From the NCBI RefSeq assembly GCF_011039075.1, contig NZ_JAAKEG010000018.1, positions 1-33,805 on the forward strand: a DNA stretch of 33,805 nt, read 5' to 3'. Source of the stretch: Adlercreutzia sp. ZJ304. GTDB lineage: Bacteria; Actinomycetota; Coriobacteriia; Coriobacteriales; Eggerthellaceae. Of the stretch, positions 2,799 to 32,551 are shown piece by piece. The position numbers were made by a program, and so were the translations under genes. Numbering within the stretch: the first letter of the stretch is position 1; every line of letters starts with the position of its first letter. Below the pieces are notes generated by a model. The model did no database searches, was not told the origin of the DNA, and was given only the letters and a program-made list of their open reading frames with translations.

Positions 2799-3419
2799 CT
2801 ATGCATTTTCCAACGAGCGCATAACGGCATCCGAAAGGTCTAGGATGCATGCATAATACCCATCTGGATACACTTCGCTAACCTTATCTCTAAGCGCGCC
2901 AATCCAAGCACGGGGATGCTCGTCTATGAAAAATTTCATATCTTCCAAACTTAGCTCTCCCCCATTCACACGGCGGCACATCTCAGATAGAGCCAGAAGC
3001 TCTATTCCTATATGGTCTGCATATTGGTTGTTTGAATTGCTTACTTCAAGCCCCATATCGCGCAGAATGTTCTGCATTTTAATTGTAGGCTCTCCAAATC
3101 CAACGGATATATCCTTGCCTTGATACATCGTTTCCCAAGGAAAAGCGGAAGGGGAAGGCGGTCCTATGAAAAGTTTTGTGTATTCAACGGCTGTGTTCTC
3201 TACCACATCTTCGCCTGCCTCTTTGCGTTTGCCTGCCTTCCTTGCAAACTCAAGGCACTTATCTATGCCCTTTTGCACCTCTTCATTATCGAAGTTTGGG
3301 AATGTCTCCCAAAAAGAAGACTCTAAACCTACACTTGGTGTTTGGGTTATAGGTTTTAGCAATGAATTGCCAAGAAAAGCCAGTACATCCGCATAGACTT
3401 CTAATCTGCTATCTTTCAT
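2799..3419 (-). CDS. TorD/DmsD-family molybdoenzyme assembly chaperone
   Basis: A cytoplasmic protein of 206 residues. It has the family signature E79-Y-T-K-L-F-I-G-P87 followed by the PWETMY segment (94-99), and a helical DHIGIELLALSEM stretch (135-147), both typical of TorD/DmsD/NarJ-like chaperones. These bind the Tat leader of Mo-bisMGD enzymes and hold the apo-enzyme until the cofactor is inserted. An upstream in-frame start exists at 3548, but ATG 3419 has a good Shine-Dalgarno (AGAAGGG, about 7 bases upstream) and begins at the conserved helix, so I chose it. It is the last gene of the locus A operon, after the NrfD anchor, and its likely client is the Tat-leader enzyme encoded at 5438-7858. 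No matching chaperone gene is seen for locus B inside the window. Confidence 0.85.
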   Translation of the reverse strand: MKDSRLEVYADVLAFLGNSLLKPITQTPSVGLESSFWETFPNFDNEEVQKGIDKCLEFARKAGKRKEAGEDVVENTAVEYTKLFIGPPSPSAFPWETMYQGKDISVGFGEPTIKMQNILRDMGLEVSNSNNQYADHIGIELLALSEMCRRVNGGELSLEDMKFFIDEHPRAWIGALRDKVSEVYPDGYYACILDLSDAVMRSLENA

Positions 3420-3482
3420 ATCAGACCCTTCTCTGCGCCAAAGAATGTTCTTATTATCTAACACTGTGCCCTCTTTAAGGCT

Positions 3483-3549
3483 AGAGCCGCTACATATAGC
3501 AGCGGCTCTGACAATCGTGGCGATCGCTAGGGAGGGACGATCGCCCACG
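3483..3549 (-). promoter_or_regulatory. Two strong hairpins between the NrfD anchor and the TorD-like gene
   Basis: The 147-bp gap 3420-3566 holds a perfect 9-bp stem (AGAGCCGCT 3483-3491 / AGCGGCTCT 3501-3509). Next to it is a longer stem with one bulge (CGTGGCGATCG 3516-3526 / CGATCGCCCACG 3538-3549). On the minus strand these come directly after the anchor gene stop and before the chaperone start. No clear T-run follows, so RNA processing, stabilisation or partial termination that lowers chaperone expression is more likely than a full terminator. Confidence 0.55.
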
Positions 3550-3566: not shown

Positions 3567-4790
3567 TTAAGCTATAGCGCTAGCCTCGCTGCCAATCTGA
3601 GAATCTACACTATCGCTTGCTTGAGGTTCTTTACTTGATATCAACAGCTTTTGAGCTATCGCCCAGAATATGATGGCACCAACACTTATAGCCCCTATGG
3701 TAATGAATATCTCTGGAATGGTTGGAACGTATAAACCATACATATTCCATGTAGCAGCGCCACCTTCCTGAGCTGCAAACGTACCTAGAGCAACACCCGG
3801 AGCGCCTTCTAGGTTAGGAACAGCAAAAGCAGTTAACAGCAACCATATACGCTTACAGAGCACACCCAATATTACAAGAACGCTAGAAGTTACAACCAAA
3901 GCTGCACTCTTTCTGTTCTTCGCAAAAACAAGAATGCAGAACGGAATTACCAAGCCTCCTATAACCTCAAACCAGAAGAAGGGTGCCATAGAGCCTGATA
4001 GCATAATTGCTAGCGTATCAGCACCTCCCGCTCCGGGATATGCCATGGTAAGCACCTCGCAGCCGATGAAGAATGCATCCACCGCGATGCATGCGCAAAG
4101 AAGACCCGAAAGTGTTGCCATAAGGTCTTTGTCTGTCTTGAACTTGCCCGACTTGTTCAGCCCAGATAGAACGCAAAGCAAAAGCGCCAACCCAGAATCC
4201 ATAGCGCTTGCTACAAAGATAGGAGCAAGTATTGCTGTATACCAGCCTTCCTTCGCAATCTGAAGCCCAAAAATCCAAGCGGTTATTGAGTGAACAAGGA
4301 TAGCTATTGGAAGCGCGAAGCGGCTTATTATCTCAACTTTATGCTCGGCGCCTTCTTTTTTGGAGCTCATGAATACAAGGTAAAGTATGTTTATCACCAA
4401 GTATAAGATTATGACGCACATATCCCAAAGAAGAGGGCTTGTGAAGTTCGGGCTTATAAGCATCCACCATATGCGCTGTATGCCGCCAACATCTATAAGC
4501 ACGAACATGCCTGCAACACAAATGCAAGCTGTAGATAGTATTACAGCTGGCATAGCTACTGCCTTGAAGCGCTTTATATGAAAGACGCTAGCAGAACTTG
4601 CCACTATAAGACCACCAGCAGAAAGACCAACAAACAGCATGAACATTATTATGTACAGACCCCAAGAGTTGGCATTTGACATGCCGGTAATCCCAAGACC
4701 TGTTAACAGCTGATATATCCAACACGCAATGCCTACAACTGCCAACACCACAAGAACTATGAAGGCAGGTTTTTTGAATAGAGTTGTCAT
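3567..4790 (-). CDS. NrfD/PsrC-type membrane anchor subunit of molybdoenzyme A
   Basis: A polytopic membrane protein of 407 residues, with about nine or ten hydrophobic segments starting at residue 9. It has NrfD/PsrC features: the SWGLYIIMFMLFVGLSAGG segment (about 42-60), a Trp-rich IQRIWWML region and a short polar C-terminal tail. Members of this family exchange electrons with membrane quinols and pass them to a four-cluster ferredoxin subunit. The Shine-Dalgarno AAGGAGA lies just before ATG 4790. The gene follows the ferredoxin subunit by 20 bp. It is clearly paralogous to the truncated gene at 33192 (shared SWGLYI-MFM-FVGLSAGGLI block). It does not itself bind haem by any motif I can see, and substrate direction (reductase or dehydrogenase) cannot be read from it. 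Confidence 0.88.
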   Translation of the reverse strand: MTTLFKKPAFIVLVVLAVVGIACWIYQLLTGLGITGMSNANSWGLYIIMFMLFVGLSAGGLIVASSASVFHIKRFKAVAMPAVILSTACICVAGMFVLIDVGGIQRIWWMLISPNFTSPLLWDMCVIILYLVINILYLVFMSSKKEGAEHKVEIISRFALPIAILVHSITAWIFGLQIAKEGWYTAILAPIFVASAMDSGLALLLCVLSGLNKSGKFKTDKDLMATLSGLLCACIAVDAFFIGCEVLTMAYPGAGGADTLAIMLSGSMAPFFWFEVIGGLVIPFCILVFAKNRKSAALVVTSSVLVILGVLCKRIWLLLTAFAVPNLEGAPGVALGTFAAQEGGAATWNMYGLYVPTIPEIFITIGAISVGAIIFWAIAQKLLISSKEPQASDSVDSQIGSEASAIA

Positions 4791-4810: not shown

Positions 4811-5428
4811 CTAGTTGTAGTAGTGGACTTGAGGACGAGTGCCCTGCTCGGGAAGAAGCGTGTAGGCATTCTTTTCGCTTATCTTCTTGGAAATCTCAGA
4901 GTTCGGATCGTCTAAGTCTCCAAACACTCTGGCTTTTGTTGGACACGACTTTACACACATAGGCTCTTCGCCTTTGTCTGTGCGCTCCTGACACATAGTG
5001 CATTTTTCTGCTACACCTTTAGGGCGTACAGGCACATCCTTGCCTCCATAATTGAAATCCGGGTCGCGCACAGGCTCTTCCCAATTGAAAGAACGCGCGT
5101 TGTAGGGGCATGCAGCCATACACATGCGGCAACCTATGCACTTGTCGTAATCTATCTCTACCCTGCCCTTGTCATCTTTATAGGTAGCGCCTGTAGGACA
5201 CACCTTCTGACATGCAGGATTCTCGCAATGTTGGCAAGCAACAGGAGTGTAGCTTCGATTAAGATTCGGATAGACACCAAAAGCGCCATCTACAATATCC
5301 GTACCATCAGTAAGCACCCTATTCCACAACATTCCCATAGGAACGTTGTTCTGCATCTTGCACGCATTAGCACAAGCCTGACAACCAATACAGCGGCGTT
5401 TATCTATAACCATTCCTAATTTTGTCAT
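4811..5428 (-). CDS. Four-[4Fe-4S] ferredoxin subunit of molybdoenzyme A (DmsB-like)
   Basis: A 205-residue electron-transfer subunit with four complete cysteine sets: C13/16/19/23, C65/68/73/77, C97/100/103/107 and C143/146/158/162. This matches the DmsB/PhsB/NrfC-type chain that links the catalytic subunit to the membrane anchor. No Tat leader is present, as expected for a partner carried out with the catalytic subunit. A GTG at 5437 is in frame, but AGGTG overlapping it makes ATG 5428 the better start. The catalytic gene ends at 5438, so the two are essentially contiguous and probably translationally coupled. The locus B gene at 32552 has the same AGGTGA-then-ATG junction, supporting common ancestry. 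Confidence 0.93.
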   Translation of the reverse strand: MTKLGMVIDKRRCIGCQACANACKMQNNVPMGMLWNRVLTDGTDIVDGAFGVYPNLNRSYTPVACQHCENPACQKVCPTGATYKDDKGRVEIDYDKCIGCRMCMAACPYNARSFNWEEPVRDPDFNYGGKDVPVRPKGVAEKCTMCQERTDKGEEPMCVKSCPTKARVFGDLDDPNSEISKKISEKNAYTLLPEQGTRPQVHYYN

Positions 5429-5437
5429 GATATTCAC

Positions 5438-7858
5438 CTATGCCTTCTGTACTTCAACTAGAGTGTCATTGAAAGGTATTACCGGACCGTACATCTTATA
5501 GTCCGCCCCTCTCAAATTGCGCTTGTCGCTTGTAACCTCTTGCATATTTCCCGATTTCATATGCTTTGACCACCAGCCTTCATAGATCTTCACAGATCCG
5601 GGTCTGACGCTCTCGTCCAAAGCTGCCTCACAGCTGAATTCTCCGCGATTGTTGAACACTCTAACGTTGTCTCCGCTTTGGATGTTTCTTTCTTTTGCGT
5701 TTTCCGGGTTTATGTATACCGTCGGGTTGGCATACTGCCTGTTCCACTCGGCATCCGCGAAAGCACAATGTGTAAGATACTTAGTTCTAACTTGCGCAAA
5801 CTGCAAAGGATATTCTTTGCGCATTGGATTCTCGTCGTATGCCTCTCCCGGGCGCTCATACGTGGGAAGCGCGTTATCGGAGCTTAGAAGGTCTTCATAG
5901 TAAAGTTCAAGTTTCTTGGAAGGAGTCTTGAATTCTTTATTGGTATAGAGATGCTCTTCTGTTGCTTTACGGGGAATAGGTATAACACATTTGTTAGCAA
6001 GGAGATCTTCTACGGTAACTGCAGCAACACGTTCGTCCTTCGCCGTAGCAAGCTGCTTTCTAACCAATTCTTCGGCAGTACTTGGAAGATCTGCCTCTGC
6101 ACCAAAACGCTTACATAACTCTCTTTCAATCCAAAAATCCGTCTTGCTCTCAAATAGAGGATCTATAACTTTTCCTTTAAGAAGCACGCTATGATGGCTG
6201 CTATGCAGCATTCCAGCATCTTCGTCGCTTTCATATCGCGTACATGCTGGCAAAATAACATCAGCATAATCAGTGGACGGCGTGTGGTACATATCAATAG
6301 CCACAACAAAGTCTAATTTGTTGAGCCATTCTTTGGTCTTGTTCATGTTTGCTATTCTGTCGTGCAGGCAATTTCCGCCCGTTATAACAGCATGAATGCC
6401 ATTGTCATCTCGAATATCAAAGATTCCTTTTGCGCTTTTACCTGCAGCATAAGTAGCAGGCAAAGGCCATGCCCCAAAATTAACCTTATCGCGCCTCCAT
6501 GTCAGCACGTAAGAGCCAACTCCAGCCCCTGTATCCGCCCCAATGCTGCCGACTAGTGCTGCCAAAATAGCTTGCGCATGACCCGCAACGTCTGCATTTT
6601 CAAACTTGTCTCCACCACCAAGTCCAGTAGATAAAATCTGGGGAGACATTAACGCATAGTCATTTGTTATTTCTTCCAACTTAGCTTTTGGAATGCCTGT
6701 TTCTTTGGAAGCCCAATCAAGGGAGTAATCTTTTTGCTTGTTCTTCAGCAGCAAAAATACTGTCGAGTATTTATTGCCATCCTTTTCAAACTTTCCTTCC
6801 AAAACTGGATTTGCAGCAAGATTATGCCTAACTGGTGCTCCTACAGCCGCGTCCCAAACCATATAATCGGCTGGATCTATCTTTTTCCCGTCCTTGTCTT
6901 CTGAAGGCTCTTCGCCATTTCTAAGCAGCGCTCCGTCTTCGCCAACAAGGAAAGGCATGCTTGTATATTTCGTAAGATAATCACGGTCAAACAATTCGTC
7001 ATCTATTATTTTAGAAATCATGCCCAAATAAAGAGCGGCATCTGTTCCGGGTTTAATTGGAACCCACTCCGTCGATTTAGATGCAGTAAGTGAAAAATGG
7101 GGATCAACCGTCACTATCTTTGTACCAGCTTCAATGGCATCAAAAAAATTAGAACTATAGGTCAGCGTAGTTTCAAGAAGATTGCTGCCAACGTTCAAAA
7201 CATATTTTGACCTCTTCCAATCCTTGTACATATTGGTGCTTTGCGCATAGTTCATTTCGCCAAAAGCTTTATCAAAACCATTAGCAAATCCTATGTCTAT
7301 TCCCTCGTTCATGGCACCATCGGAAACGCCTTTAGCGCCAAGAACTTTTTGCAAGAAAAGATATTCAGTGGTTCTTACTTCTCCGGCCATAATAGTAAGT
7401 ACCGAGTCTTTGCCGTTTTTGGACTGTATGTCTTTTATCGTGTCAGCAACACGATCTAAAGCCTCATCCCATGAGACGGATTTGAATTCGCCGCTTCCGC
7501 GCTCTCCGGTTCTGATCATAGGAGTTTGGATGCGCTCTTTACTATATACATGCTGTACTTCACCGATGCCTTTAGCGCAAATACTAGCCTCGGCATTAGA
7601 GAAAGCATCGTTTGGCTCTATCAAAACAAGACGACCATCTCGCACTGTGCATTTGTGCGAACATAGACACTGGCAATGCCTATTGTGGAATGTATATCCA
7701 ATCTTTTCACTAGATCCCTCGGCATGCGCTTTTGCTGGGGCAAGCCACTCGCTTGTTGTAGCCATACCACCTGCCATAACGCCTAACGCACCAACAGTAG
7801 CTGCGCCCTTCACGAAGCCACGACGAGTTATGCCTGTGAGCGATTTCCCTCCTGACAT
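5438..7858 (-). CDS. Tat-exported DMSO-reductase-family molybdopterin oxidoreductase, catalytic subunit A
   Basis: 806 residues, a normal length for this family. A twin-arginine leader is seen (TRRGFVKGAA at 11-20, hydrophobic core, AKAHA before about residue 47). The N-terminal [4Fe-4S] site has the DmsA-type spacing C62-x3-C66-x3-C70-x23-C94, with C94 followed by AKG. The C-terminal domain contains the usual molybdopterin-binding stretch (INPENAKERNIQSGDNV). The first gene of an operon with ferredoxin and NrfD subunits, it should face the outside of the membrane and exchange electrons with quinones. At the place where DmsA has its Mo-ligating Ser I read GAMNEGIDIGFANG (181-194), with no Ser or Cys; D188 is the only obvious candidate. 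The substrate is therefore unknown; DMSO/TMAO reductase, catechol dehydroxylase or another function are all possible. Shine-Dalgarno AGGAGGAG precedes ATG 7858. Confidence 0.92.
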   Translation of the reverse strand: MSGGKSLTGITRRGFVKGAATVGALGVMAGGMATTSEWLAPAKAHAEGSSEKIGYTFHNRHCQCLCSHKCTVRDGRLVLIEPNDAFSNAEASICAKGIGEVQHVYSKERIQTPMIRTGERGSGEFKSVSWDEALDRVADTIKDIQSKNGKDSVLTIMAGEVRTTEYLFLQKVLGAKGVSDGAMNEGIDIGFANGFDKAFGEMNYAQSTNMYKDWKRSKYVLNVGSNLLETTLTYSSNFFDAIEAGTKIVTVDPHFSLTASKSTEWVPIKPGTDAALYLGMISKIIDDELFDRDYLTKYTSMPFLVGEDGALLRNGEEPSEDKDGKKIDPADYMVWDAAVGAPVRHNLAANPVLEGKFEKDGNKYSTVFLLLKNKQKDYSLDWASKETGIPKAKLEEITNDYALMSPQILSTGLGGGDKFENADVAGHAQAILAALVGSIGADTGAGVGSYVLTWRRDKVNFGAWPLPATYAAGKSAKGIFDIRDDNGIHAVITGGNCLHDRIANMNKTKEWLNKLDFVVAIDMYHTPSTDYADVILPACTRYESDEDAGMLHSSHHSVLLKGKVIDPLFESKTDFWIERELCKRFGAEADLPSTAEELVRKQLATAKDERVAAVTVEDLLANKCVIPIPRKATEEHLYTNKEFKTPSKKLELYYEDLLSSDNALPTYERPGEAYDENPMRKEYPLQFAQVRTKYLTHCAFADAEWNRQYANPTVYINPENAKERNIQSGDNVRVFNNRGEFSCEAALDESVRPGSVKIYEGWWSKHMKSGNMQEVTSDKRNLRGADYKMYGPVIPFNDTLVEVQKA

Positions 7859-8004: not shown

Positions 8005-8034
8005 ACTATAGCACGATTGTCCTATGACAATCAA
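8005..8034 (-). promoter_or_regulatory. Promoter of molybdoenzyme operon A
   Basis: On the minus strand there is TTGATT (8034-8029) as -35 and TATAGT (8010-8005) as -10, with an 18-bp spacer, about 146 bp before the ATG at 7858. The spacer is largely filled by one of the GACAAT-type palindromes, so a regulator bound there would act directly on polymerase. Confidence 0.6.
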
Positions 8035-8052
8035 GGATAATCATAGGACAAT
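8016..8052. promoter_or_regulatory. Double palindromic operator upstream of molybdoenzyme operon A
   Basis: A perfect 16-bp operator ATTGTC-CTAT-GACAAT lies at 8016-8031 and a degenerate copy ATAATC-ATAG-GACAAT at 8037-8052. They start 21 bp apart, two helical turns. The whole region also forms a perfect 12-bp inverted repeat (8016-8027 and 8041-8052). Related half-sites occur before the NrfD-GntR-slipin units and before operon B. The likeliest binder is the YtrA-type GntR protein encoded at 9192-9662 or its paralogue; this is inference. Confidence 0.6.
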
Positions 8053-8213: not shown

Positions 8214-9188
8214 CTACATTTTCCCTTTAAGGCTGTCTGGCAACACATCAGAGAATCCCTCGCTGAACGAAGACGGCACCACCACAGTACCCTTTCCTTC
8301 TCGAAGAGATTCATTAAGTAGATGCATGGCACGAAGATGCATTGCAGCATCGTTATTCTCGTAAAGACTTTCCATATCATTCAGCATTTCAAATATATCC
8401 TGCTCAGCTTCTATCAATATGATACGGGCTTTCTTGCGCTGTTCAGCCTGAGCTTCAAGCGACATCACTTCTTGAAGATCTCTGGGCAACAAAATGTCGC
8501 GCACCTCTACAGAGAGTATGGTCACTCCCCACGGCGACACCTTCTCTTCAAGAACCTTTTTCAGTTCCCGGTCTAGCTGATCGCGCCTGATGGCAACTTC
8601 GGCTGCGCTTGCCCGTCCAATAGCATCGCGCAATGCCGTCTGCGCAGAAAGCTCTACCGCGGCGGTAAAATCTCCTACCTCTATACAGGCAGCCTCGGCG
8701 TCCCACACATGCCAAAAGAGCACAGCGTTCACATCAAGCGATACTAGGTCGGCTGTAAGAGTTTCTTCTGCACCAAACGTGGTTACGCGCATACGGGTAT
8801 CTACTCGCATGGTATTGCTCTCTATTATCGGCCACGTCCAAAACAAACCGGGACCAGCTACGCGGTTCAATTTCCCCAGTCGCAATACCACCACGCGCTC
8901 CCACTGTTGCGCAATATGACAGGAAGACACAACCAAAGCCGCCGCAATAACGCCTACAGCAATAGCTACAAGAGTCACCCTTCCCTGCAACACAAAACCG
9001 CCGATTAGGCACAATGCGAACACCAGCAAGAAAATAGCAACCGCGAACACAATAACGCCTGCGTTCGATGCCTTTTCTCCGATGACCTCTGTAACCGTAT
9101 CCGGCTTAACACGAAAGCGCTTGCCCCTAGCATCAATCTCGGTAGCAACCAAATCAGACTTTTCGCGCACTTTTCTTGATGTCCCCAT
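8214..9188 (-). CDS. SPFH/band-7 (slipin-like) membrane protein A
   Basis: 324 residues. Two hydrophobic segments (about 44-67 and 71-91) form a membrane hairpin, followed by a PHB/SPFH domain (about 96-270) that begins WERVVVLRLGKLNRVAGPGLF, the classic stomatin/slipin start. A charged helical stretch with EAQAEQRKKARIILIEAE follows, and the tail ends in the conserved VVVPSSFSEGFSD. Slipins oligomerise at membranes and scaffold other membrane proteins; many bacterial ones pair with NfeD proteases, but no NfeD gene is seen here. The N-terminal 40 residues are longer than in ordinary slipins. It lies 3 bp after the GntR gene with its own AGGGG ribosome site, and the molybdoenzyme operon follows. 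The paralogue at 28740-29717 shares the same architecture and tail, so a role tied to the oxidoreductase or to its NrfD partner is inferred. Confidence 0.9.
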   Translation of the reverse strand: MGTSRKVREKSDLVATEIDARGKRFRVKPDTVTEVIGEKASNAGVIVFAVAIFLLVFALCLIGGFVLQGRVTLVAIAVGVIAAALVVSSCHIAQQWERVVVLRLGKLNRVAGPGLFWTWPIIESNTMRVDTRMRVTTFGAEETLTADLVSLDVNAVLFWHVWDAEAACIEVGDFTAAVELSAQTALRDAIGRASAAEVAIRRDQLDRELKKVLEEKVSPWGVTILSVEVRDILLPRDLQEVMSLEAQAEQRKKARIILIEAEQDIFEMLNDMESLYENNDAAMHLRAMHLLNESLREGKGTVVVPSSFSEGFSDVLPDSLKGKM

Positions 9189-9191
9189 GTT

Positions 9192-9662
9192 TTATGCCCC
9201 TCGCGTCTTGCGTTTATTCTTCTCTTCCCTGAAATCCATGATGCGCCCACCTAGAACCGAACCTTCTCCGCCATGTTCAGCATTGAAACGAATGCGTTTT
9301 ATATAGCGAGTAAAAGTCTTTTCTATGTCGGCGTAGTCCATTCCTAATTCACGGCAGGCAGCTATCGCGTCATCTATAATTCCCTTCACTTGATCTAGCT
9401 CGTCATCGCCAAGCTTCGATGCAATATCCGTTACGAATACGCCGCGTCCGCGCGTAGATTCAAGATAGCCATCTGACACTAAGCTCAAATACGCCTTATT
9501 GACCGTGTTGTAATTTATCGAAATATCGGACGCTAAACCACGAACCGTAGGCAGCTTTTCTCCCGGCTTCAATTCGCCCGAATTTATAAGATATGCGATC
9601 CTTTGCCTTAACTGTACCCATAAAGGAATATCGCTGGATTCATCTATTTGAAACGAAATCAT
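9192..9662 (-). CDS. GntR-family transcriptional regulator, YtrA type (A)
   Basis: 156 residues. The N-terminal winged helix-turn-helix (about 10-78) contains PLWVQLRQRIAYLI, LPTVRGLASD and NYNTVNKAYLSLVSDGYL, the standard GntR pattern. It is followed by a short helical tail of about 75 residues instead of a large ligand-binding domain, which places it with YtrA-like regulators. Those commonly repress the operon that contains them, often ABC-transporter or membrane-stress genes. Here it sits between an NrfD-like gene (stop 9675, whose stop codon overlaps the AGGAGGG ribosome site) and the slipin gene. Palindromic sites at 10691-10706 and 8016-8052 are natural candidates for its operators. The paralogue at 28313 has the same recognition-helix region (NYNTV-K-Y), consistent with similar operators. 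What signal it senses is unknown. Confidence 0.9.
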   Translation of the reverse strand: MISFQIDESSDIPLWVQLRQRIAYLINSGELKPGEKLPTVRGLASDISINYNTVNKAYLSLVSDGYLESTRGRGVFVTDIASKLGDDELDQVKGIIDDAIAACRELGMDYADIEKTFTRYIKRIRFNAEHGGEGSVLGGRIMDFREEKNKRKTRGA

Positions 9663-9674
9663 AAAGTTGCCCTC

Positions 9675-10652
9675 CTACGACACAAGATATCCGATGGGCT
9701 GCATTGCCGCCTGAACTACCAAGAAACGAAGCAGAGCCCCACCAAAAAGAACACACGCAGCCGTACTCAATATAAAAAGCGCACTTGAACTAGATTTTCC
9801 CATACGCATCAGGTTCGACCTTTTTCTGGATATGGCAATATCTTGAACGAACGGCACAGCAAGCCCTATAAAAGCAAAACCAACCCAGAACGTTACAGCC
9901 AAAGGTCCCACAAGAAGACTTTCTAGGGAATCAAACGCCGCTTGACCTGTACTATCCGCAGGTCCTGCCAAGCCACCTGCCGCGCTCCATACGCTAAACA
10001 AGCAGAAGAACCCAACTGCAGCTTCTATCAATATAATAGCGGCATCAACTTTAGATAGACGCACTAAGGTGGAATAGAAGGCTGTCAGAGATCCGGATAT
10101 CAGCGAAGAACACAAAGCCAGAGCAATTCCGCAAGATAATGCCGAAAGAACAAACAGCAACACCAGCCAGAATGTATTCCAAACCGGAATAGCGCGTATA
10201 TCTGACAGCATTAATCCTGTATAAACCATTACCACGATGCTGGAGACACCAGCGATTATGCTTAGCACAGTTAAGCATTTCCTAGATATACGCATATGAC
10301 CAGCCCATAAGACGACACACAAAAGAGCCGATATAGAGCACACAATGATGAACCACGTCCCAACAGCCATATAAGTAGGAGTGGGATAAAACAACAGTAA
10401 CAAGAGTTTATCTGGACGACCAAGATCGGCCATCAGGCAAATAGCCCCCAAGAACAAAGCCCCAAGAGCGGCTATATATAACGCAGAGAAAAAACGTCTC
10501 CAAGTTTGCGCCGATGCTGAATGAATGCCATAAACAAGAAAGCGATCAATCTCGGTAGGTTCTGCCAAAAGCGCCAAAATAGAAGCGATCAAACAGCATC
10601 CGGCACCGGTGCCACCGAGAAAAAGATATGCAACTACAAGATCGCTAAACAT
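9675..10652 (-). CDS. Stand-alone NrfD-like polytopic membrane protein (A)
   Basis: 325 residues from ATG 10652, with about eight transmembrane segments. The start YLFLGGTGAGC and the motif MADLGRPD are hallmarks of the NrfD/PsrC quinol-interacting family. Unlike the anchor at 3567-4790 it is not next to its own ferredoxin subunit; it heads a unit with a GntR regulator and a slipin. An ATG at 10661 is also in frame, but AGGGG is only a base or two before it and about 10 before the second ATG, so 10652 is preferred. The paralogue at 27321-28316 keeps the same start and gene order. It may be an alternative anchor for the downstream oxidoreductase, or a quinol-state sensor for the regulator; the second is my inference. 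Confidence 0.87.
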   Translation of the reverse strand: MFSDLVVAYLFLGGTGAGCCLIASILALLAEPTEIDRFLVYGIHSASAQTWRRFFSALYIAALGALFLGAICLMADLGRPDKLLLLLFYPTPTYMAVGTWFIIVCSISALLCVVLWAGHMRISRKCLTVLSIIAGVSSIVVMVYTGLMLSDIRAIPVWNTFWLVLLFVLSALSCGIALALCSSLISGSLTAFYSTLVRLSKVDAAIILIEAAVGFFCLFSVWSAAGGLAGPADSTGQAAFDSLESLLVGPLAVTFWVGFAFIGLAVPFVQDIAISRKRSNLMRMGKSSSSALFILSTAACVLFGGALLRFLVVQAAMQPIGYLVS

Positions 10653-10690: not shown

Positions 10691-10706
10691 ATTATCATAA
10701 GACAAT
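10691..10706. promoter_or_regulatory. Operator-like palindrome before the NrfD-GntR-slipin unit A
   Basis: ATTATC-ATAA-GACAAT lies 39 bp before the ATG at 10652. It matches the operator ATTGTC-N4-GACAAT of 8016-8031 at all but one arm position and closely matches the copy at 8037-8052. This supports autoregulation by the encoded GntR protein. Confidence 0.5.
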
Positions 10707-27055: not shown

Positions 27056-27162
27056 AGCACCCCCGAAAGACAGGACGCTCGTCAGCGGTCCCTTATGGCT
27101 GCTTCCTCCCGGACCTGACCAGATTCAGAACTTGGCGCCGCCCTGTCCTTCGGAGGTGCTCC
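27056..27162 (-). ncRNA. ffs: Signal recognition particle RNA, small bacterial type
   Basis: On the minus strand the universally conserved SRP core GGTCAGGTCCGGGAGGAAGC (with A-to-G at one loop position) and the following AGC are present. The flanks GGAGCACCTCCGAAGGACAG and CTGTCTTTCGGGGGTGC pair to make the long helix, giving about 107 bases. The RNA binds Ffh and targets membrane proteins. Position upstream of dnaX-ebfC-recR matches the order known from Bacillus (scr-dnaX-ebfC-recR). Exact ends are estimated from the pairing. Confidence 0.95.
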
Positions 27163-27248: not shown

Positions 27249-27296
27249 TATGACACGTTGTCATACTCATCCAAGAGTTTTTGTGTCATACTGACA
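27249..27296. promoter_or_regulatory. Operator palindromes before the NrfD-GntR-slipin unit B
   Basis: TATGACA-CGT-TGTCATA (27249-27265) is a perfect 17-bp palindrome, and TGTCA-TAC-TGACA (27284-27296) is a second one, 35 bp on. Both share the TGTCATA/TATGACA half-site with the locus A and operon B operators. They lie 25-72 bp before ATG 27321 and are placed to control the regulator's own unit. Confidence 0.65.
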
Positions 27297-27320: not shown

Positions 27321-28316
27321 ATGTTCGGTGAGTTAGCCATCGCATATCTGTTTCTAGGTGGCGCAGGTGCCGGATGTTTAATTGTTTGCTCAACGGCAGA
27401 CCTTGCATTTGCCCACCAACTTTCCAAAAAGATTATCCCTAAAACAGTCCCAAACGCGCTAAACACCCCAATGTCAATTTCAACACAAAAAGCACTACGA
27501 AGCGCCTTTGTAGTCGGATACCTTTTTCTGGCAACAGGCGCATTTTGCCTTCTCGCCGATTTGGGTCGGGCAGACCGCGCCTTAAATCTTTTCACAAACA
27601 TTTTTCCTACATTTATAACTATGGGCACATTCGCAATAGCAATTACGCTAATTGTTGCCTTTCCCCTAGTCCTCTCAAAGTTGCTTTATTTGCCGCAAAT
27701 AAAGCAAAATCTAACAATTGTTTTAGAGTTGCTAACTATTGCGTTTGGCTTCGTTACAGCCATATATACAGGTCTTTTGTTATGCGATATAGAAGCTGTA
27801 AATCTTTGGGCAACACCGCTTATTCCAATATTGTTTACGCTTTCTGCTCTTTCGTGCGGCGAAGCCATCCTTATCATATCCATATTCTTCACCGCGACCA
27901 TACACGAAAAAAGCAAGCTGCTGAAATCCTTAATTATTATCGATGTGGTTCTTCTAGCTGCAGAACTTATTTGTGTAGTCATATTCTGGACAGCAGCAAC
28001 AAATAGCAGCCATTCCGGTTTGCAAGAATCGGTGCGCCTGTTAACCACCGAACCGCTTTCTTTACTTTGGTGGGGTGGATTCGTTTTTGTAGGGTTGCTA
28101 ATTCCGCTAATAGCCGAAATTACACTTTACTGCCTGCGCCGGACGCGCCGTCGTAATATAAATGCTCAACAATGCTACGCTATCGTTGCAACTATGGTGC
28201 TTTTTGGTGCCCTGTGCATGCGCTGGTCTATTGTAGATGCCGGAGCACATGCACAACTAGCGCTAGATTATCCTAAAGAGACATCTTCGATTTTGGAAGA
28301 AAGGGACGTTTCGTGA
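27321..28316 (+). CDS. Stand-alone NrfD-like polytopic membrane protein (B)
   Basis: 331 residues, about eight transmembrane segments. The start MFGELAIAYLFLGGAGAGC and the motif LLADLGRADR match the paralogue at 9675-10652 (YLFLGGTGAGC, MADLGRPD). ATG 27321 is fixed by AAGGAG 6 bases upstream and by alignment with the paralogue, although the open frame extends further upstream. Like its paralogue it lacks an adjacent ferredoxin subunit and heads a unit with a GntR regulator; its stop overlaps the regulator's GTG start by 4 bases, so the two are translationally coupled. Likely site of action is the cytoplasmic membrane, probably near quinones; a sensory role is inference. Confidence 0.88.
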   Translation: MFGELAIAYLFLGGAGAGCLIVCSTADLAFAHQLSKKIIPKTVPNALNTPMSISTQKALRSAFVVGYLFLATGAFCLLADLGRADRALNLFTNIFPTFITMGTFAIAITLIVAFPLVLSKLLYLPQIKQNLTIVLELLTIAFGFVTAIYTGLLLCDIEAVNLWATPLIPILFTLSALSCGEAILIISIFFTATIHEKSKLLKSLIIIDVVLLAAELICVVIFWTAATNSSHSGLQESVRLLTTEPLSLLWWGGFVFVGLLIPLIAEITLYCLRRTRRRNINAQQCYAIVATMVLFGALCMRWSIVDAGAHAQLALDYPKETSSILEERDVS

Positions 28317-28840
28317 TTAAGCTGAAAAAAATTGTACCCGCCGCCGATTTGTTTGAACTGGATGAACGAAGCAGCATCCCTATCTGGCTTCAACTGAAAA
28401 ATCGTTTCATATACCTTATAACCTCTGGATACTATATGCCCGGAGATCAACTGCCAACAGTACGCGGACTTGCAGCCGATGTAGAAATTAACTACAACAC
28501 CGTAAGCAAAGTGTATCAAAGCCTAGAAGAAGACGGCTACATACAATCCAAACGCCGGCAAGGCGCATTTGTATGCGACGTAAGCAATAAACCGGGTGTA
28601 AGCATTGCAGTAACGGCAGAAATAATAACTGTCGAATATATACAGCGTTGTCAGGAACTAGGAATGTCGCTCGATGATATCGGAATGCAATTCTCTACCA
28701 GCTTGTCTAAATTAAGACGCGCAGATAAGGGAGAAACAAATGAGAGTGAAGGGACGAAAGCAGAAAACCGCTGGAACGTCGTGGCATTCCCAGAGCCAGA
28801 GAATGGTTCAACCACACGTACAGCCGGAAGCGGGGCTTAA
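28313..28840 (+). CDS. GntR-family transcriptional regulator, YtrA type (B)
   Basis: 175 residues, starting at GTG 28313 inside the stop of the NrfD-like gene (GTGA overlap). The winged helix region (about 17-85) has IPIWLQLKNRFIYLI, LPTVRGLAADVEINYNTVSK and VYQSLEEDGYIQSKRRQGAF. The C-terminal part is a short helix tail plus about 35 residues of low-complexity sequence that overlap the slipin frame. The paralogue at 9192 is collinear through the DNA-binding and helical parts and shares LPTVRGLA-D--INYNTV. Palindromes at 27249-27296 and 29863-29927 are candidate targets. Confidence 0.9.
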   Translation: MIKLKKIVPAADLFELDERSSIPIWLQLKNRFIYLITSGYYMPGDQLPTVRGLAADVEINYNTVSKVYQSLEEDGYIQSKRRQGAFVCDVSNKPGVSIAVTAEIITVEYIQRCQELGMSLDDIGMQFSTSLSKLRRADKGETNESEGTKAENRWNVVAFPEPENGSTTRTAGSGA

Positions 28841-29717
28841 TCACACATCCAGAAACGGTGCAATAGTTTTCTCCGTTTTCGTATTCGTCCTCGCAGGCGT
28901 ATTAACACTTGCCATATATCAAACGATACAGGGAAGAATCGATATAGCCGCCATCTGCATAACCCTTATAGTCGGATGGCTGGCATCAAGTTCAATCCAT
29001 TTTATAATGGAATGGGAGAAAGCCGTTATTATGCGGTTTGGGCGATTTAATCGCATAGCTGGTCCGGGCTTAGTATTCACCTTACCTATAGTAGAGTTTT
29101 ATAGCCTACGCATAGATCAGCGAGTAATGGTTACTTACTTTGGTGCCGAAGAAACACTCACAAGCGATCTCGTGCCCGTTAATGTAGATGCCGTTATTTT
29201 CTGGATGGTATTTTCGCCCAAAAAAGCAGCACTTGAAGTGGAAGATTATCCGGTAGCAGTATCGTGGCTAACGCAGACAACGCTACGTAAAGCCATCGGA
29301 CGCGCAACGCTTTCCAAAGCAGCAATGCGCCGCGATCAGCTAGATGCCGAGCTGAAAGAGGTACTTGAAACCAAGCTGTCCGAATGGGGAATAGATGTTA
29401 TTGATGTAGAGGTACGCGACATTGTAGTACCAAAAGAGTTGCAAGACCCCATGGCAGCCGAAGCCATCGCTATGCGCGAGCGCAACGCCCGCATGATACT
29501 AGCAGAAGCGGAACGCGATATTTCTGCAATGCTGCACGATGCCTCGGCGGCATACGACGGCGACACCGATGCTATGCATCTGCGCACCATGCATCTTGCA
29601 TATGAGTCGGTTAAAAATTCGGGTGGAACTCTTGTAATTCCTAGTGCCTTTAGCGAAGGTTTTAACGACCCAAATCTTGCAGAAAATCGTATACCAAAAA
29701 ACGCCGACCATAAGTAG
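28740..29717 (+). CDS. SPFH/band-7 (slipin-like) membrane protein B
   Basis: 325 residues from ATG 28740 (GGGAG about 7 bases upstream), which overlaps the regulator gene by 101 bases in another frame. Two hydrophobic segments (about 41-63 and 67-88) precede a PHB domain that starts WEKAVIMRFGRFNRIAGPGL (92-111). The tail has the conserved VIPSAFSEGFND. It aligns along its length with the protein at 8214-9188 (shared MR-D--MxVT-FGAEETLT-DLV block). The first 38 residues differ, so a slightly later start is possible. Like the A copy it lies directly upstream of the molybdoenzyme operon. No NfeD-type partner is nearby. Confidence 0.9.
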   Translation: MRVKGRKQKTAGTSWHSQSQRMVQPHVQPEAGLNHTSRNGAIVFSVFVFVLAGVLTLAIYQTIQGRIDIAAICITLIVGWLASSSIHFIMEWEKAVIMRFGRFNRIAGPGLVFTLPIVEFYSLRIDQRVMVTYFGAEETLTSDLVPVNVDAVIFWMVFSPKKAALEVEDYPVAVSWLTQTTLRKAIGRATLSKAAMRRDQLDAELKEVLETKLSEWGIDVIDVEVRDIVVPKELQDPMAAEAIAMRERNARMILAEAERDISAMLHDASAAYDGDTDAMHLRTMHLAYESVKNSGGTLVIPSAFSEGFNDPNLAENRIPKNADHK

Positions 29718-29862: not shown

Positions 29863-29927
29863 TTTGTCATATATTGTCCTACTAAAACTGTTGACTAGAC
29901 GTTATGCGTATGACAAACTATGACAAT
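29863..29927. promoter_or_regulatory. Operator cluster upstream of molybdoenzyme operon B
   Basis: Left side: TTTGTCATA (29863) and ATTGTCCTA (29873), 10 bp apart. Right side: TATGACAAA (29909) and TATGACAAT (29919), also 10 bp apart and in the opposite orientation. This gives four half-sites symmetric about a centre that contains TTGACT (29891), a possible -35. No good -10 was found. The half-sites match those at 8016-8052 and 27249-27296. Confidence 0.6.
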
Positions 29928-30064
29928 AAAGGATCGGCCGATTCTCAAATTGGGGGAAGTCTCACAGATTCTCTATATTCAAACGCATAGACAAATTCGT
30001 CATGTGGGTGTCTGCGAGGTTTCCTAGAAAATTCATTTTTCAAAAGAAGAATGGAGGAGAGAAG

Positions 30065-32542
30065 ATGTCGGATACGATCAAGGAAAAGACAAGTCTAACC
30101 CGGCGCAATTTCCTAAAAACCACAGCAGCAGTTGCAGGTGCTACAGCAATTTCGGGTAGCACCCTTACTGCTTTTGCAGCTGAAAGTGGTGATGCGGGTG
30201 CCGAATCTACCGAACAGGTATATCAGGGTGTATGCAGAGGTAACTGCATGGGCGGATGTCCGCTAGACATATACGTGCGCAACGGAAAAGTAGTGCGCGT
30301 TTCAGCCTCTGATGTGCCAGATGACCGCTACAAGCGTGCATGCATGAAGGGTCTTTCGCATCCTCAAAAAATGTACCTCCCCGACAGGATTCTGTACCCT
30401 ATGAAACGTGCAGAAGGAACTGAACGTGGCGCAGGCGCTTGGGAGCGAATTACATGGGATGAGGCAATAAGCACCATTTGCAACGAATGGACTAGACTGC
30501 GAAAAGAATACGGAACAGGCGCTATTGGATGGTGGACCCAATCTGGTCAGTTTGGCTTGCTAAGCGGCTGCCACTACAACGGCGCATACACGCGCTTGCA
30601 AAATGCTATGCAGGCTATTCCCATTTCAGGTTCAATCGACATGAACTATTACACGGCAAGCAGCGCAATGTTTGGAAGCAGCCTTGTAAGTCAAACTAAC
30701 GAATTGACCGACTTCGCAAATGCGAAAACCATAATTGCGTGGGGTTCAAACTTAACCGAAGCACAAATTCAAGCGTGGCATTTCTTTGCTGACGCTATTG
30801 ACAACGGCGCAAAACTAATCGTAATAGACCCAGCATTCACAACAATTGCATCTAAAGCCGATCTTTATGTTCCGCTTCGCCCCGCAAGCGATGCTGCTTT
30901 GGCTTTAGGAATGTGCAACATTATCATCGAGAAAGATCTTGTAGACTGGGACTTCGTAAAGAACCACTCCGTTGCCCCATTCCTAGTTAAAGAGGATGGC
31001 ACATATCTGCGCCAAAGCGACTTAGGTCTTGGCGAAAAAGGTGCCAAAACCGACCAAGTTATTGTTATAGATGCCGCTACCGGCGAAGCTGTAGCATCAT
31101 CTGAAACCACCAATCCTACCCTAGAAGGCACACACGAGGTTGCTGGTTTTTCTGTTCGCCCAGCATTCGCATTACTGCTGGAAAGAATCGCCGAATACAC
31201 GCCAGAAAAGGCTTCTGAATTAAGCGACGTTCCGGTGGAAGTAATGGAGCAAATTGTAGACTTGTACACCCAAAATGGACCGGCAAGTATGTTCTGGGGC
31301 TTCGGACAAGACAGATACTACAACGGTCATGGCTCTTATTATGCAATGGGAACAATGTCTATTTTGGCAGGCAACATAGGCAAAAAGGGATGCAGCACCG
31401 GAGCATGCTCTTACAACAGCGTTCCCCTAGATGCAAAACTATGCACCAGCCCAATTAAAGCTAAACAAGAAGACACCGTAGGCGGAGGATCGGCTTCTTA
31501 CACAGCCGGCGTTCTGGCTCTAAAAATGGCTGAAGCTATAAAAACGGGCACATACAACGGCAAACCGTTTGTTATGAAAAGCATCTACATTCATAACTGC
31601 AATCCGCTGAATTACGTAGCTGACCGTCAATCTATTTTACACGACGTTTTCGACAAGATGGAACTTATCGTAGTAGCTGAAACCAGACCTACAGATACAA
31701 CGGTATACGCCGATATAGTTTTACCGTCAGCACACTGGTTCGAGCAGGAAGACTTTACTTGCGGCACTGCCCACTTACAGCCATTTGCCGTTCTGCAAGA
31801 AAAAGCCGTAGAACCTATGGGCGAATGCAAACCTGACTATGAAATATTCAAGCTTCTTGCTGAAGGTCTTGATATGCCATATGTATACGACGGCTTAAAT
31901 TCCGAAGAGGCATTGCGCTACATTTTAGATACACCTACAGCTGCAAAATTCGGCATAAGCTACGATCGTATGAAGAAGGAAAAAGTAGTCCGCTGGCTGC
32001 CGGGTAAAAACTTTATCTTCGCAGCGGGTGGAAATTTCACAACCCCCACCGGAAGAGCTCAGTTCTATTTTGAAAAGCCTGTTGCCTCTATGCAGTACGG
32101 TCAAACAATTGATGTAGAACTGGAGCATTTGCCATTCTTCATTGAGCCTTCAGAAGCATGGCCGAGCAACCCTCTTGCAAAGAAATACCCGCTTACATGC
32201 TATCAGGAGCACACACGATATCGCGTACATTCCAATTTCAGTCATATTCCATGGCTTCGTGAATTCGACCCCGAACCAACAGTGAAAATTCACACTAAAG
32301 ATGCAGAAGCGCGAAACATAAAAAGCGGTGACATGGTTCGTCTGTTCAACGATCGCGGGTCGTGTACGGTTCGCGCAATCGTTACCGAAGGAATTAGGCC
32401 CGGTACTGTAAACACTCCTCATGGTTGGCAAGCCGATCAATACGTTGAAGGACATTATCAAGATCTGACAAGCCGCGAGACAAATCCCTACATTGCTAAT
32501 TCGCAGTTCTCCGACTTACTTGTTGAGATTGAAAAGGCATAG
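30065..32542 (+). CDS. Tat-exported DMSO-reductase-family molybdopterin oxidoreductase, catalytic subunit B
   Basis: 825 residues from ATG 30065 (GGAGGAG just upstream; the frame is open further upstream without support). The Tat leader is SLTRRNFLKTTAAVAG (10-25), with cleavage near AFA at 36-38. The [4Fe-4S] motif is C57-x3-C61-x3-C65-x27-C93, the DmsA spacing. At the Mo-ligand position NYYTASSAMFG (194-204) lines up with the NHYGTYSTAQ of E. coli DmsA, so S199 is the predicted Mo ligand. This supports a DMSO/TMAO-reductase-like enzyme using quinol electrons, though many paralogues with other substrates exist in this group of bacteria. The ferredoxin subunit follows after a 9-bp gap (ATG 32552). 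Confidence 0.93.
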   Translation: MSDTIKEKTSLTRRNFLKTTAAVAGATAISGSTLTAFAAESGDAGAESTEQVYQGVCRGNCMGGCPLDIYVRNGKVVRVSASDVPDDRYKRACMKGLSHPQKMYLPDRILYPMKRAEGTERGAGAWERITWDEAISTICNEWTRLRKEYGTGAIGWWTQSGQFGLLSGCHYNGAYTRLQNAMQAIPISGSIDMNYYTASSAMFGSSLVSQTNELTDFANAKTIIAWGSNLTEAQIQAWHFFADAIDNGAKLIVIDPAFTTIASKADLYVPLRPASDAALALGMCNIIIEKDLVDWDFVKNHSVAPFLVKEDGTYLRQSDLGLGEKGAKTDQVIVIDAATGEAVASSETTNPTLEGTHEVAGFSVRPAFALLLERIAEYTPEKASELSDVPVEVMEQIVDLYTQNGPASMFWGFGQDRYYNGHGSYYAMGTMSILAGNIGKKGCSTGACSYNSVPLDAKLCTSPIKAKQEDTVGGGSASYTAGVLALKMAEAIKTGTYNGKPFVMKSIYIHNCNPLNYVADRQSILHDVFDKMELIVVAETRPTDTTVYADIVLPSAHWFEQEDFTCGTAHLQPFAVLQEKAVEPMGECKPDYEIFKLLAEGLDMPYVYDGLNSEEALRYILDTPTAAKFGISYDRMKKEKVVRWLPGKNFIFAAGGNFTTPTGRAQFYFEKPVASMQYGQTIDVELEHLPFFIEPSEAWPSNPLAKKYPLTCYQEHTRYRVHSNFSHIPWLREFDPEPTVKIHTKDAEARNIKSGDMVRLFNDRGSCTVRAIVTEGIRPGTVNTPHGWQADQYVEGHYQDLTSRETNPYIANSQFSDLLVEIEKA

Positions 32543-32551
32543 GTGAGTAAA

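Follow-up and report, generated by a model that had tools for sequence, protein, structure and literature searches.

A candidate control cassette of NrfD-family, YtrA-type GntR and stomatin-like SPFH genes beside respiratory reductase operons in the Eggerthellaceae

Eggerthellaceae encode dozens of respiratory reductases, some acting on drugs, dietary compounds or host metabolites, and we know of no account of what switches most of them on. The window analyzed here (the whole stretch of DNA under study, 33,805 nucleotides) raises the question of what three tightly linked genes, encoding an NrfD-family membrane protein, a YtrA-type GntR regulator and a stomatin-like SPFH protein, do beside such enzymes. 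An earlier note on this DNA had recognized the trio twice and had proposed that the NrfD-like protein reports quinone state or acts as an alternative anchor, and that the GntR protein sets expression.

Recurrence of the trio beside molybdoenzyme operons

Pfam profiles identify both copies in the window as real. Trio 1 lies on the reverse strand and comprises the NrfD-family gene NrfDt1 (9675..10652, 325 aa; PF03916, 79.6 bits), the GntR gene (9192..9662, 156 aa; PF00392, 56.5 bits) and the SPFH gene (8214..9188, 324 aa; PF01145, 117 bits), separated by only 12 bp (NrfD/GntR) and 3 bp (GntR/SPFH). Trio 2, on the forward strand, has the same order (NrfD, 27321..28316, PF03916, 70 bits; GntR, 28313..28840, 175 aa, PF00392, 48.5 bits; SPFH, 28740..29717, PF01145, 117.3 bits), and its genes overlap as previously described, by a 4-bp GTGA between NrfD and GntR and by 101 bp between the GntR and SPFH reading frames, with the reservation that the SPFH start at 28740 is uncertain and possibly lies further downstream. 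Two copies proved to be an undercount: a third trio, in the order NrfD-SPFH-GntR and followed by a molybdoenzyme operon, occurs on contig C30 of the same Eggerthellaceae genome, and all three SPFH genes of this genome belong to trios. We found no description of SPFH, NrfD and GntR together in the literature searched, and the set thus appears to be undescribed, as the note had supposed.

Both trios precede a same-strand respiratory operon encoding a TAT-type molybdopterin subunit, an FeS subunit and a second NrfD, in agreement with the earlier note. Operon 1, on the reverse strand, encodes a TAT-exported catalytic subunit (5438..7858; PF00384, 159 bits) of the DMSO-reductase family, yet under every equivalog cut-off, followed by the 4Fe-4S subunit FeSB (4811..5437; PF13247, 81 bits; DsrO-like, 205 bits), the DsrP-type NrfD anchor NrfDC (3567..4790; PF03916, 157 bits; DsrP model, 143.7 bits) and a TorD-like maturation chaperone (2799..3548; PF02613, 79.6 bits). 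Operon 2, on the forward strand, encodes a TAT-exported catalytic subunit (30065..32542; PF00384, 152.7 bits), the reading frame of which was listed from 30002, with the ATG at 30065, after GGAGGAG, as the likelier start. It continues with an FeS subunit (32543..33175; PF13247, 82.5 bits) and an NrfDC anchor left incomplete by the contig end (33192..33805), the final 600 bp of which are identical to the start of an NrfDC gene on contig C4.

The genomic neighborhood was surveyed in eight complete relatives harboring 66 SPFH genes of the trio clade. A GntR gene adjoins all 66, degenerate in one case, leaving 65 of 66 with a clade GntR, and reciprocally none of the 65 clade GntR genes is more than 309 bp away from a clade SPFH gene. 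An NrfD gene is found within 1.5 kb of 58 of the 66, and each trio locus has one SPFH gene; none of four control SPFH genes from outside the clade has a GntR or NrfD neighbor. Across the Eggerthellaceae the cassette occurs in 100 of 138 genomes, in up to 13 copies per genome and in variable gene order (NrfD-GntR-SPFH, NrfD-SPFH-GntR or GntR-SPFH-first), some trios lying 3' of the enzyme operon. That the trio is a coherent unit is supported by sequence comparison, its genes evolving as one block (see below).

Because these genomes abound in reductase operons, with up to 88 molybdopterin-domain genes in one of them, any duplicated cassette might land near one by accident. We regard the chance of this as negligible: a molybdopterin enzyme lies within 8 kb of 60 of the 66 clade SPFH genes against at most 25% expected (P ~5e-30), and an FeS-NrfD pair lies downstream in five of the six exceptions, of which the two tested carry a sulphite-oxidase-fold enzyme. 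The survey thus refutes random placement of the trio relative to oxidoreductase operons, the outcome that the earlier note had set against its own proposal. A stricter rule, by which trios accompany only NrfD-anchored molybdopterin enzymes, was discarded: NrfDC switches between present and absent at least six times along the NrfD tree, and some loci carry a sulphite-oxidase-fold enzyme instead.

The GntR regulator and its predicted operators

The best PDB profile match of the GntR protein is YtrA_Sa (6sbs, 75 bits, spanning residues 4-119). An N-terminal winged helix-turn-helix was found in both window copies, well above the 27-bit cut-off of PF00392, and their sizes fit the short C-terminal domain of YtrA proteins (about 50 aa, two helices). 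YtrA-subfamily regulators are typically encoded by the first gene of their operon, whereas the trio regulator is second or third in most loci and first only in the GntR-SPFH-first loci. YtrA_Sa offers a precedent: a 14-bp semi-palindrome that covers the start site and is flanked by half-sites mediates repression of its own operon, in which a membrane protein is also encoded, and of a single further locus for a membrane protein (PMC6746942). The trio resembles this Sulfolobus acidocaldarius system in pairing a small YtrA-type GntR with a co-transcribed membrane-protein gene, in the predicted promoter palindrome of 14-16 bp with half-sites, and in having two predicted targets only, its own locus and one further; it differs in its partners, an NrfD-family quinone protein and a stomatin-type SPFH, and in its second predicted target, a respiratory reductase operon.

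In line with the inverted-repeat habit of YtrA regulators, a type-specific palindrome is predicted at the trio promoter. At trio 1, the predicted operator U1 (10691..10706, reverse strand; ATTGTCTTATGATAAT) lies 39 bp before the NrfDt1 start, and no other site in the 2.0-Mb genome differs from ATTGTCNTANGACAAT by a single mismatch. The only perfect match is the predicted operator M1a (8016..8031, reverse strand; ATTGTCATAGGACAAT), which lies before enzyme operon 1 and forms the right arm of a 13-bp inverted repeat; a second predicted site, M1b (8037..8052, reverse strand; ATTGTCCTATGATTAT), is a 2-mismatch match 21 bp from M1a. The two best matches to the trio 1 palindrome across the 2-Mb genome are thus the trio promoter and the enzyme promoter. 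At trio 2, motif analysis and a scan with TTGTCATA predicted operator U2 (27249..27265, forward strand; TATGACACGTTGTCATA), a half-site of which is repeated at 27283-27290 (GTGTCATA). The corresponding predicted region before enzyme operon 2, M2 (29864..29926, forward strand), holds TTGTCATA at 29864-29871 and TATGACAA at 29909-29916 and 29919-29926.

This sharing extends to the relatives. The 9-mers common to a trio promoter and the promoter of its own enzyme number 97, compared to 37.7 +/- 9.3 (maximum 78) in 5000 permutations, and sharing persists when permutation is restricted to within genomes (P 5e-5 for k=7, 0.001 for k=9). TATGACA is present in 54 of 78 SPFH-enzyme intergenic regions, against 2.8 expected, TTGTCATA reaches a density of 20.7 per 10 kb in the trio and enzyme promoter regions versus 0.40 elsewhere, and TTGTCGCAA occurs in the enzyme promoters of all six loci with NrfD-SPFH-GntR order compared to 1 of 41 others. 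A predicted locus-specific palindrome is therefore common to trio and downstream enzyme promoters and varies with GntR type. These predicted sites give good support to GntR control of trio and enzyme operon alike, and the proposal that the GntR protein sets expression is very probably correct, for both units. Because the predicted sites overlap promoter elements, the GntR protein is most likely a repressor.

A single operator for all copies was ruled out, as the sites differ by GntR type. Counting against this control, among 47 non-redundant loci the tested operator words were absent from the trio promoter at 28 and from both promoters at 10. Many of the loci without recognizable operator words are GC-rich. 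The first motif obtained upstream of the trio, TACCTGTTCCT, was dropped on proving to be the NrfD coding start (YLFLGG), and a generic promoter scan, in which promoter-like sites were no commoner than in shuffles, carries little weight. Many enzyme genes are also preceded by a second palindrome, a DNA element of the GAAT-CGGCCG-ATTC class; its reading as a structured leader RNA was rejected for want of an Rfam match.

Locus-specific regulators beside molybdenum reductases are known from the same family. The 12-TM LuxR regulators of the Eggerthella lenta catechol dehydroxylases share this arrangement and differ in being one-protein membrane activators, without SPFH, NrfD or GntR; neither GntR nor SPFH is mentioned in that work (PMC9734109).

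The SPFH and NrfD-like membrane proteins

Both profile searches and Foldseek rank human stomatin as the best match of the trio SPFH protein, and the closest solved structures are human and P. horikoshii stomatin. The two membrane helices claimed for it agree with the AlphaFold2 model of the trio 1 protein, which places two N-terminal helices at 43-68 and 73-89. Like the SPFH proteins of stomatin/slipin-NfeD operons (SPFH1; PH1511-PH1510, QmcA-YbbJ), it is a stomatin-type domain after an N-terminal membrane anchor, and unlike them it has two predicted TM helices and lacks NfeD. An NfeD partnership was rejected, as no NfeD adjoins any trio copy: PF01957 is absent from the genome itself, and in seven of eight relatives the canonical slipin-NfeD pair is separate from the trios, with NfeD beside a non-clade SPFH gene only.

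The SPFH fold is common to HflK/C, QmcA and prohibitin cages, and the trio might accordingly serve quality control of membrane proteins or microdomain formation, in the manner of HflK-HflC or QmcA; it would then be induced by envelope stress and lie beside reductases because these are hard to assemble. Loss of HflK-HflC in E. coli does disturb respiratory enzymes, a resemblance to our proposal, but the effect is global, aerobic and not operon-specific, with no linked regulator (PMC12005517). We consider this reading quite unlikely. The clade profile scores 143 bits against stomatin and 43 bits against HflK; identity with the HflK/FtsH modulators was rejected, as HflK/HflC models reach 59-69 bits against a 159-bit cut-off and the genes are not paired; NfeD is never the partner; and the copies have their own predicted operators, with only two neighboring targets for trio 1, unlike a general stress device.

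The AlphaFold2 model of NrfDt1 (pLDDT 93.7) matches PsrC in Foldseek (2vpw_C, TMt 0.74) and has a PsrC/ActC-like fold. In PsrC, the quinone site comprises a Tyr on TMH1, an acidic residue on TMH2, a Ser/Thr and a Tyr-Thr pair on TMH4, with a gate Arg on TMH8 (PMC8076601). When its residues are assigned to this list from their order and spacing rather than by superposition, NrfDt1 has Y9, D76, T93, Y144 and T145 together with E210 and R309; Y9, D/E76, Y144, E210 and R309 are conserved in 69/69 trio NrfD proteins, S/T93 in 66/69 and T145 in 60/69. The trio protein thus shares family (PF03916), fold and quinone-site and gate residues with PsrC, DmsC, DsrP and ActC, and differs from ActF, the second NrfD subunit of ACIII, in which the quinone site is not kept. 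Unlike PsrC and its relatives, the window-trio NrfD has no NrfC/PsrB-type FeS gene beside it; FeSB from the adjoining operon may be its partner, although the two correlate weakly (0.33). The note's description of an NrfD without a ferredoxin partner therefore stands for the window loci, but an FeS gene directly precedes the trio-associated NrfD in 8 of 93 non-redundant relatives.

Co-evolution and a proposed regulatory circuit

NrfD, GntR and SPFH evolve as one block (r 0.77-0.90; NrfDt-SPFH 0.85, GntR-SPFH 0.90), the enzyme genes MopA, FeS and NrfD anchor as a second (r 0.60-0.88; NrfDC-FeSB 0.88), and the two blocks correlate at 0.23-0.40 (NrfDt-FeSB 0.32). Neighboring genes of one transcription unit, however, co-evolve by common inheritance even if their products make no contact, and a two-block pattern of this kind would also arise from recombination between the trio and the enzyme genes.

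These values bear on whether the trio NrfD is a second or alternative quinol-oxidizing anchor of the MopA-FeS enzyme, with the GntR protein as regulator and the SPFH protein as an assembly aid. The PsrC/ActC fold with its intact quinone site and gating Arg would suit this role, and NrfD directly follows an FeS gene at L020, L037 and L095; however, FeS-adjacent anchors mostly fall in a different branch of the NrfD tree (95/91 support). No NrfD other than that of the trio was found in the 28 operons lacking NrfDC, and there its correlation with FeSB reaches 0.63, whereas in operons with NrfDC, both window operons included, the trio NrfD co-evolves with SPFH and GntR instead of the FeS subunit (NrfDt-FeSB 0.33). 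The suggestion of an alternative anchor hence fits operons lacking the usual one and is not favored for the window type; as a general explanation we hold it to be unlikely.

The reading that we prefer, and consider reasonably probable, is that the trio forms a control cassette that is self-contained, regulates itself and serves one neighboring respiratory reductase. First, the YtrA-type GntR would bind its own locus-specific palindrome at the trio and enzyme promoters, a step well supported by comparison. Second, co-evolution suggests that the NrfD-like and stomatin-type SPFH proteins likely form one membrane unit, in which an SPFH oligomer would house the NrfD-like quinone-reactive protein; where the operon has its own NrfD anchor, this unit would not be a stable enzyme subunit. 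Third, and hypothetically, the state of the membrane unit, most naturally quinone occupancy or redox, may hold the GntR protein at the membrane or free the repressor, such that reductase synthesis would be confined to conditions in which quinol pool and substrate demand it. That the trio NrfD reports quinone state, as earlier suggested, is a hypothesis with which its intact predicted quinone-site residues are consistent. Several points speak against the cassette. Gene order varies, and where a trio lies 3' of the enzyme genes, no intergenic site can serve both units alike. YtrA-type regulators are also not known to bind a ligand, and a possible thiol in the trio GntR, Cys109, is present in only 51 of 75 proteins.

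More tentatively, the trios may represent a class of quinone-redox sensors in which an NrfD without FeS partner, in a stomatin-type cage, reads menaquinone/menaquinol and signals through a small GntR to one dedicated reductase operon, with private operators allowing up to a dozen insulated circuits per cell. The ability of a protein with the NrfD fold to act as a quinone sensor could be tested with the trio, and genetic tools are available for Eggerthella lenta (PMC9734109). A cassette with its own readable predicted operator would also offer a practical means of predicting the regulator of each reductase, and a bacterial stomatin-type protein would gain a concrete, operon-specific partner.

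Trios and molybdoenzyme operons of the source genome

The two sets of an NrfD-family gene, a YtrA-type GntR gene and an SPFH gene (trios) that the earlier note had described were both confirmed, as was their position ahead of molybdoenzyme operons. Trio 1, on the minus strand, encodes an NrfD-family protein (NrfDt1, 9675-10652), the GntR protein (GntR1, 9192-9662) and the SPFH protein (8214-9188), and is followed on the same strand by genes for a molybdopterin subunit (5438-7858), an FeS subunit (4811-5437), a DsrP-type NrfD anchor (3567-4790) and a TorD-like chaperone (2799-3548). Trio 2 lies on the plus strand (NrfD, 27321-28316; GntR, 28313-28840; SPFH, 28740-29717), followed on that strand by a molybdopterin subunit with a likely start at 30065, an FeS subunit and an NrfD anchor whose gene runs off the end of the contig. 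The source genome (2.0 Mb, 98% complete; the window is its contig C8) has a third trio on contig C30, ordered NrfD-SPFH-GntR and placed immediately ahead of a molybdoenzyme operon. All three SPFH genes of this genome sit in trios; it encodes about 21 molybdopterin enzymes.

In operons 2 and 3, the NrfD anchors (window 33192-33805; contigs C4, C10 and C30; loci L007, L009 and L004) share one protein sequence over the stretches compared (the first 172 residues and about the last 150) and differ in DNA. The enzymes and trios of these operons are divergent, unlike their anchors, and the assembly breaks within these near-repeat anchor genes. Between anchor and TorD, both operons encode a small exported protein with a CX4CH motif (CPV.GCASG.CHGF; L007:7312-7746, L009:549-947) and then a DUF4405 membrane protein, possibly as a haem-binding accessory. 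The same genome carries an NrfD-anchored molybdoenzyme operon without a trio (C25:157612-162016, L005), with a divergent 498-aa GntR-type gene of MocR-like length beside it, and a likewise divergent 461-aa GntR-type gene beside the enzyme at C25:21733 (L006, C25:20159-23151). Also in the window are a fused MobB-MobA protein of molybdopterin guanine dinucleotide synthesis (22027-23301), an adjoining 400-aa polyferredoxin-like protein (20822-22024) and, just upstream of trio 2 on the minus strand, the bacterial small SRP RNA (27059-27154).

Distribution and gene order of the trio

SPFH proteins of the trio type form a clade that 100 of 138 Eggerthellaceae genomes encode, in up to 13 copies each, with named matches in Eggerthella, Gordonibacter, Adlercreutzia, Raoultibacter, Rubneribacter, Paraeggerthella, Slackia and others. 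In a class-wide draw of 398 genomes, 86 carried the clade, 78 within the family and 8 outside it. The neighbourhood survey proposed in the earlier note covered eight genomes, complete or nearly so, with 66 clade SPFH genes. Each of the 66 has a GntR neighbour at 500 bp or less (degenerate at locus L147), 58 have a trio NrfD gene within 1.5 kb, and 64 some same-strand NrfD gene within 8 kb. Conversely, all 65 clade GntR genes of these genomes (above 110 bits; the next GntR scored 81) are no more than 309 bp away from a clade SPFH gene, L147 being the sole SPFH gene without one. A molybdopterin enzyme was found within 8 kb in 60/66 cases, compared to a chance of at most 25% per locus (P about 5e-30), as estimated from 447 molybdopterin-domain genes across 29.1 Mb with an 8-kb reach. 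The trio is thus not randomly placed relative to oxidoreductase operons, and the observation in the earlier note is both confirmed and extended.

Five of the six loci with no molybdopterin enzyme in reach (L102, L113, L123, L143 and L150) share a layout of GntR-SPFH, about 3 kb, and FeS-NrfD, and sulphite-oxidase-fold enzymes (PF00174) lie in the 3-kb stretch in the two examined, L102 and L150; the sixth, L147, has no enzyme nearby. At L101 a molybdopterin gene is in reach, but its nearest partners encode a multihaem protein and, divergently, an FeS-NrfD-flavoprotein set. None of four control SPFH genes outside the clade had a GntR or NrfD neighbour, and in seven of eight relatives it is the non-clade SPFH gene that adjoins NfeD, the canonical slipin pair.

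The commonest gene order is that of the window, NrfD-GntR-SPFH followed by molybdopterin subunit, FeS subunit, NrfD anchor and TorD. In the second the trio reads NrfD-SPFH-GntR, in the third it closes the enzyme operon at its 3' end, and in the fourth GntR-SPFH comes first, with NrfD further on behind an FeS gene. GntR-SPFH is the constant core across these layouts. In L050, a 5.4-kb contig of an Anaerolineae metagenome-assembled genome, a YtrA-type GntR gene lies 10 bp before an SPFH gene (40% identity). Since neither NrfD nor a reductase is encoded on these 5.4 kb, the pair may predate its recruitment to reductases, with L050 as a possible ancestral pair.

Membrane proteins and their co-evolution

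The SPFH protein has two N-terminal membrane helices, an SPFH domain and a long helix. Profile searches of the PDB favoured stomatin (143 bits) and Pyrococcus horikoshii stomatin (131) over QmcA (86) and HflC/HflK (43-47), and Foldseek ranked human stomatin first, so that by sequence the protein is of stomatin type. The name slipin used in the earlier note is apt in this respect, but the usual slipin arrangement pairs SPFH1 with NfeD (PMC2636767), and this partner is missing from the trio.

The predicted fold of the trio NrfD resembles PsrC and ActC. It keeps Y9, acidic 76, S/T 93, Y144-T145, E210 and R309, and five of these positions (Y9, acidic 76, Y144, E210, R309) are kept in 69/69 sequences. 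Following the functional residues described for NrfD-like subunits, these match the Wolinella succinogenes PsrC set (Tyr23, Asp76, Ser94, Tyr159-Thr160, Glu225, Arg305; PMC8076601) by order and spacing, not by residue-by-residue superposition. Because these PsrC-type residues are retained, the trio NrfD is set apart from ActF, the described second NrfD subunit, in which the quinone site is lost. In the NrfD tree, FeS-adjacent anchors and the anchors of enzyme operons (NrfDC) separate from most trio NrfD proteins, and the presence of NrfDC among trios switches at least 6 times.

Pairwise distance matrices were correlated over 36 window-type loci and also over all 74 loci. In the window-type loci, correlations were high within the trio (NrfD-SPFH 0.85, NrfD-GntR 0.77, GntR-SPFH 0.90) and within the enzyme (NrfDC-FeS 0.88, FeS-molybdopterin subunit 0.80, NrfDC-molybdopterin subunit 0.60), and 0.23-0.40 between the two blocks. 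In 28 operons without NrfDC, the correlation of trio NrfD with the FeS subunit rose to 0.63. The excess of NrfD-SPFH over NrfD-FeS correlation was 0.52 (0.40-0.63) with NrfDC and 0.24 (0.06-0.48) without it. Read plainly, these values suggest that, in operons with an anchor of their own, SPFH and GntR are the partners of the trio NrfD, although neighbours within one transcription unit also co-evolve through co-inheritance. The alternative anchor envisaged in the earlier note is plausible for operons lacking their own, where the trio NrfD would itself be the anchor.

Predicted operators and a proposed regulatory cassette

TATGACA occurs in 54/78 of the intergenic regions that separate trio and enzyme gene (M), against 2.8 expected, and expectation-maximisation on M regions elicited ATTGTCATAtGACAAT. 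The region upstream of the trio (U) holds the palindrome ATTGTCTTATGATAAT in trio 1 and relatives, over an apparent -10 element judged by eye, TATGACACGTTGTCATA plus TGTGTCATACT in trio 2 and relatives, and TTGCGACAA in NrfD-SPFH-GntR loci. Within a locus, U and M carry the same palindrome type; TTGTCGCAA is found in M in 6/6 loci of NrfD-SPFH-GntR order compared to 1/41 others. Own U and M share 97 9-mers, against 37.7 +/- 9.3 with loci permuted, and the sharing persisted under within-genome permutation, which controls for composition (P 5e-5, 0.0005, 0.001 and 0.008 for k=7, 8, 9 and 10). U and M carry TTGTCATA at 50 times the density seen elsewhere in the 2.28 Mb of fetched sequence. Scanning the whole 2-Mb genome with ATTGTCNTANGACAAT returned one perfect site, before the enzyme gene (8016-8031), one one-mismatch site, before the NrfD gene of trio 1 (10691-10706), and five two-mismatch sites, 8037-8052 among them, the chance expectation for the window being 0.13 sites. 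Such a distribution would be expected of a GntR1 that acts on its own trio and on the enzyme operon next to it, with few other targets. The tested operator words are absent from 28/47 trio promoters, frequently in GC-rich loci, where the operator is either different or missing.

The closest solved relative of the trio GntR, YtrA_Sa, likewise has two targets: it represses its own operon, which includes a membrane protein, and one further membrane-protein locus, acting at a 14-bp semi-palindrome that spans the start site and is flanked by half-sites (PMC6746942). Because the predicted sites overlie presumed promoter elements, they argue for repression by GntR; with the promoter positions only guessed, activation of the enzyme promoter is a possible alternative. 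In the reading that we favour, the trio is an autoregulated cassette: GntR would control its own genes and those of one reductase, and NrfD and SPFH would form a membrane unit most likely setting GntR activity, with quinone state as the hypothetical signal. The interpretation in the earlier note is partly supported. Comparison shows the association, the shared operators, the co-evolution and the conservation of the quinone site; GntR binding and repression, and contact between NrfD and SPFH, are inferred.

Consistent with the earlier note, a search of open-licence papers returned none treating SPFH, NrfD and GntR together. YtrA-type regulators with membrane partners are known; we could not find a description of this combination and role. 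In Eggerthella lenta, locus-specific 12-TM LuxR activators serve catechol dehydroxylases, in a paper that mentions neither GntR nor SPFH (PMC9734109), and a 2026 lineage preprint counts many reductases and mentions none of GntR, SPFH and NrfD (PMC13060105). The nearest SPFH-respiration link found is HflK-HflC, which affects respiration in E. coli (PMC12005517).

A Cys in a C.ELGM segment of the GntR C-terminal helix, absent in trio 3, is present in trios 1 (9192-9662) and 2 (28313-28840) and in 51/75 GntR sequences, with a second Cys four residues before it in 25/75; it is a possible thiol switch, a redox input other than quinone. A second palindrome, GAAT(C/T)(G/T)GCC(G/A)ATTC (window 29931-29944; L029, L091, L092, L107 and other loci), lies downstream of TTGTCATA sites, ahead of many trio-associated enzyme genes, and its strict form stands before molybdopterin-subunit genes in 6/7 cases.
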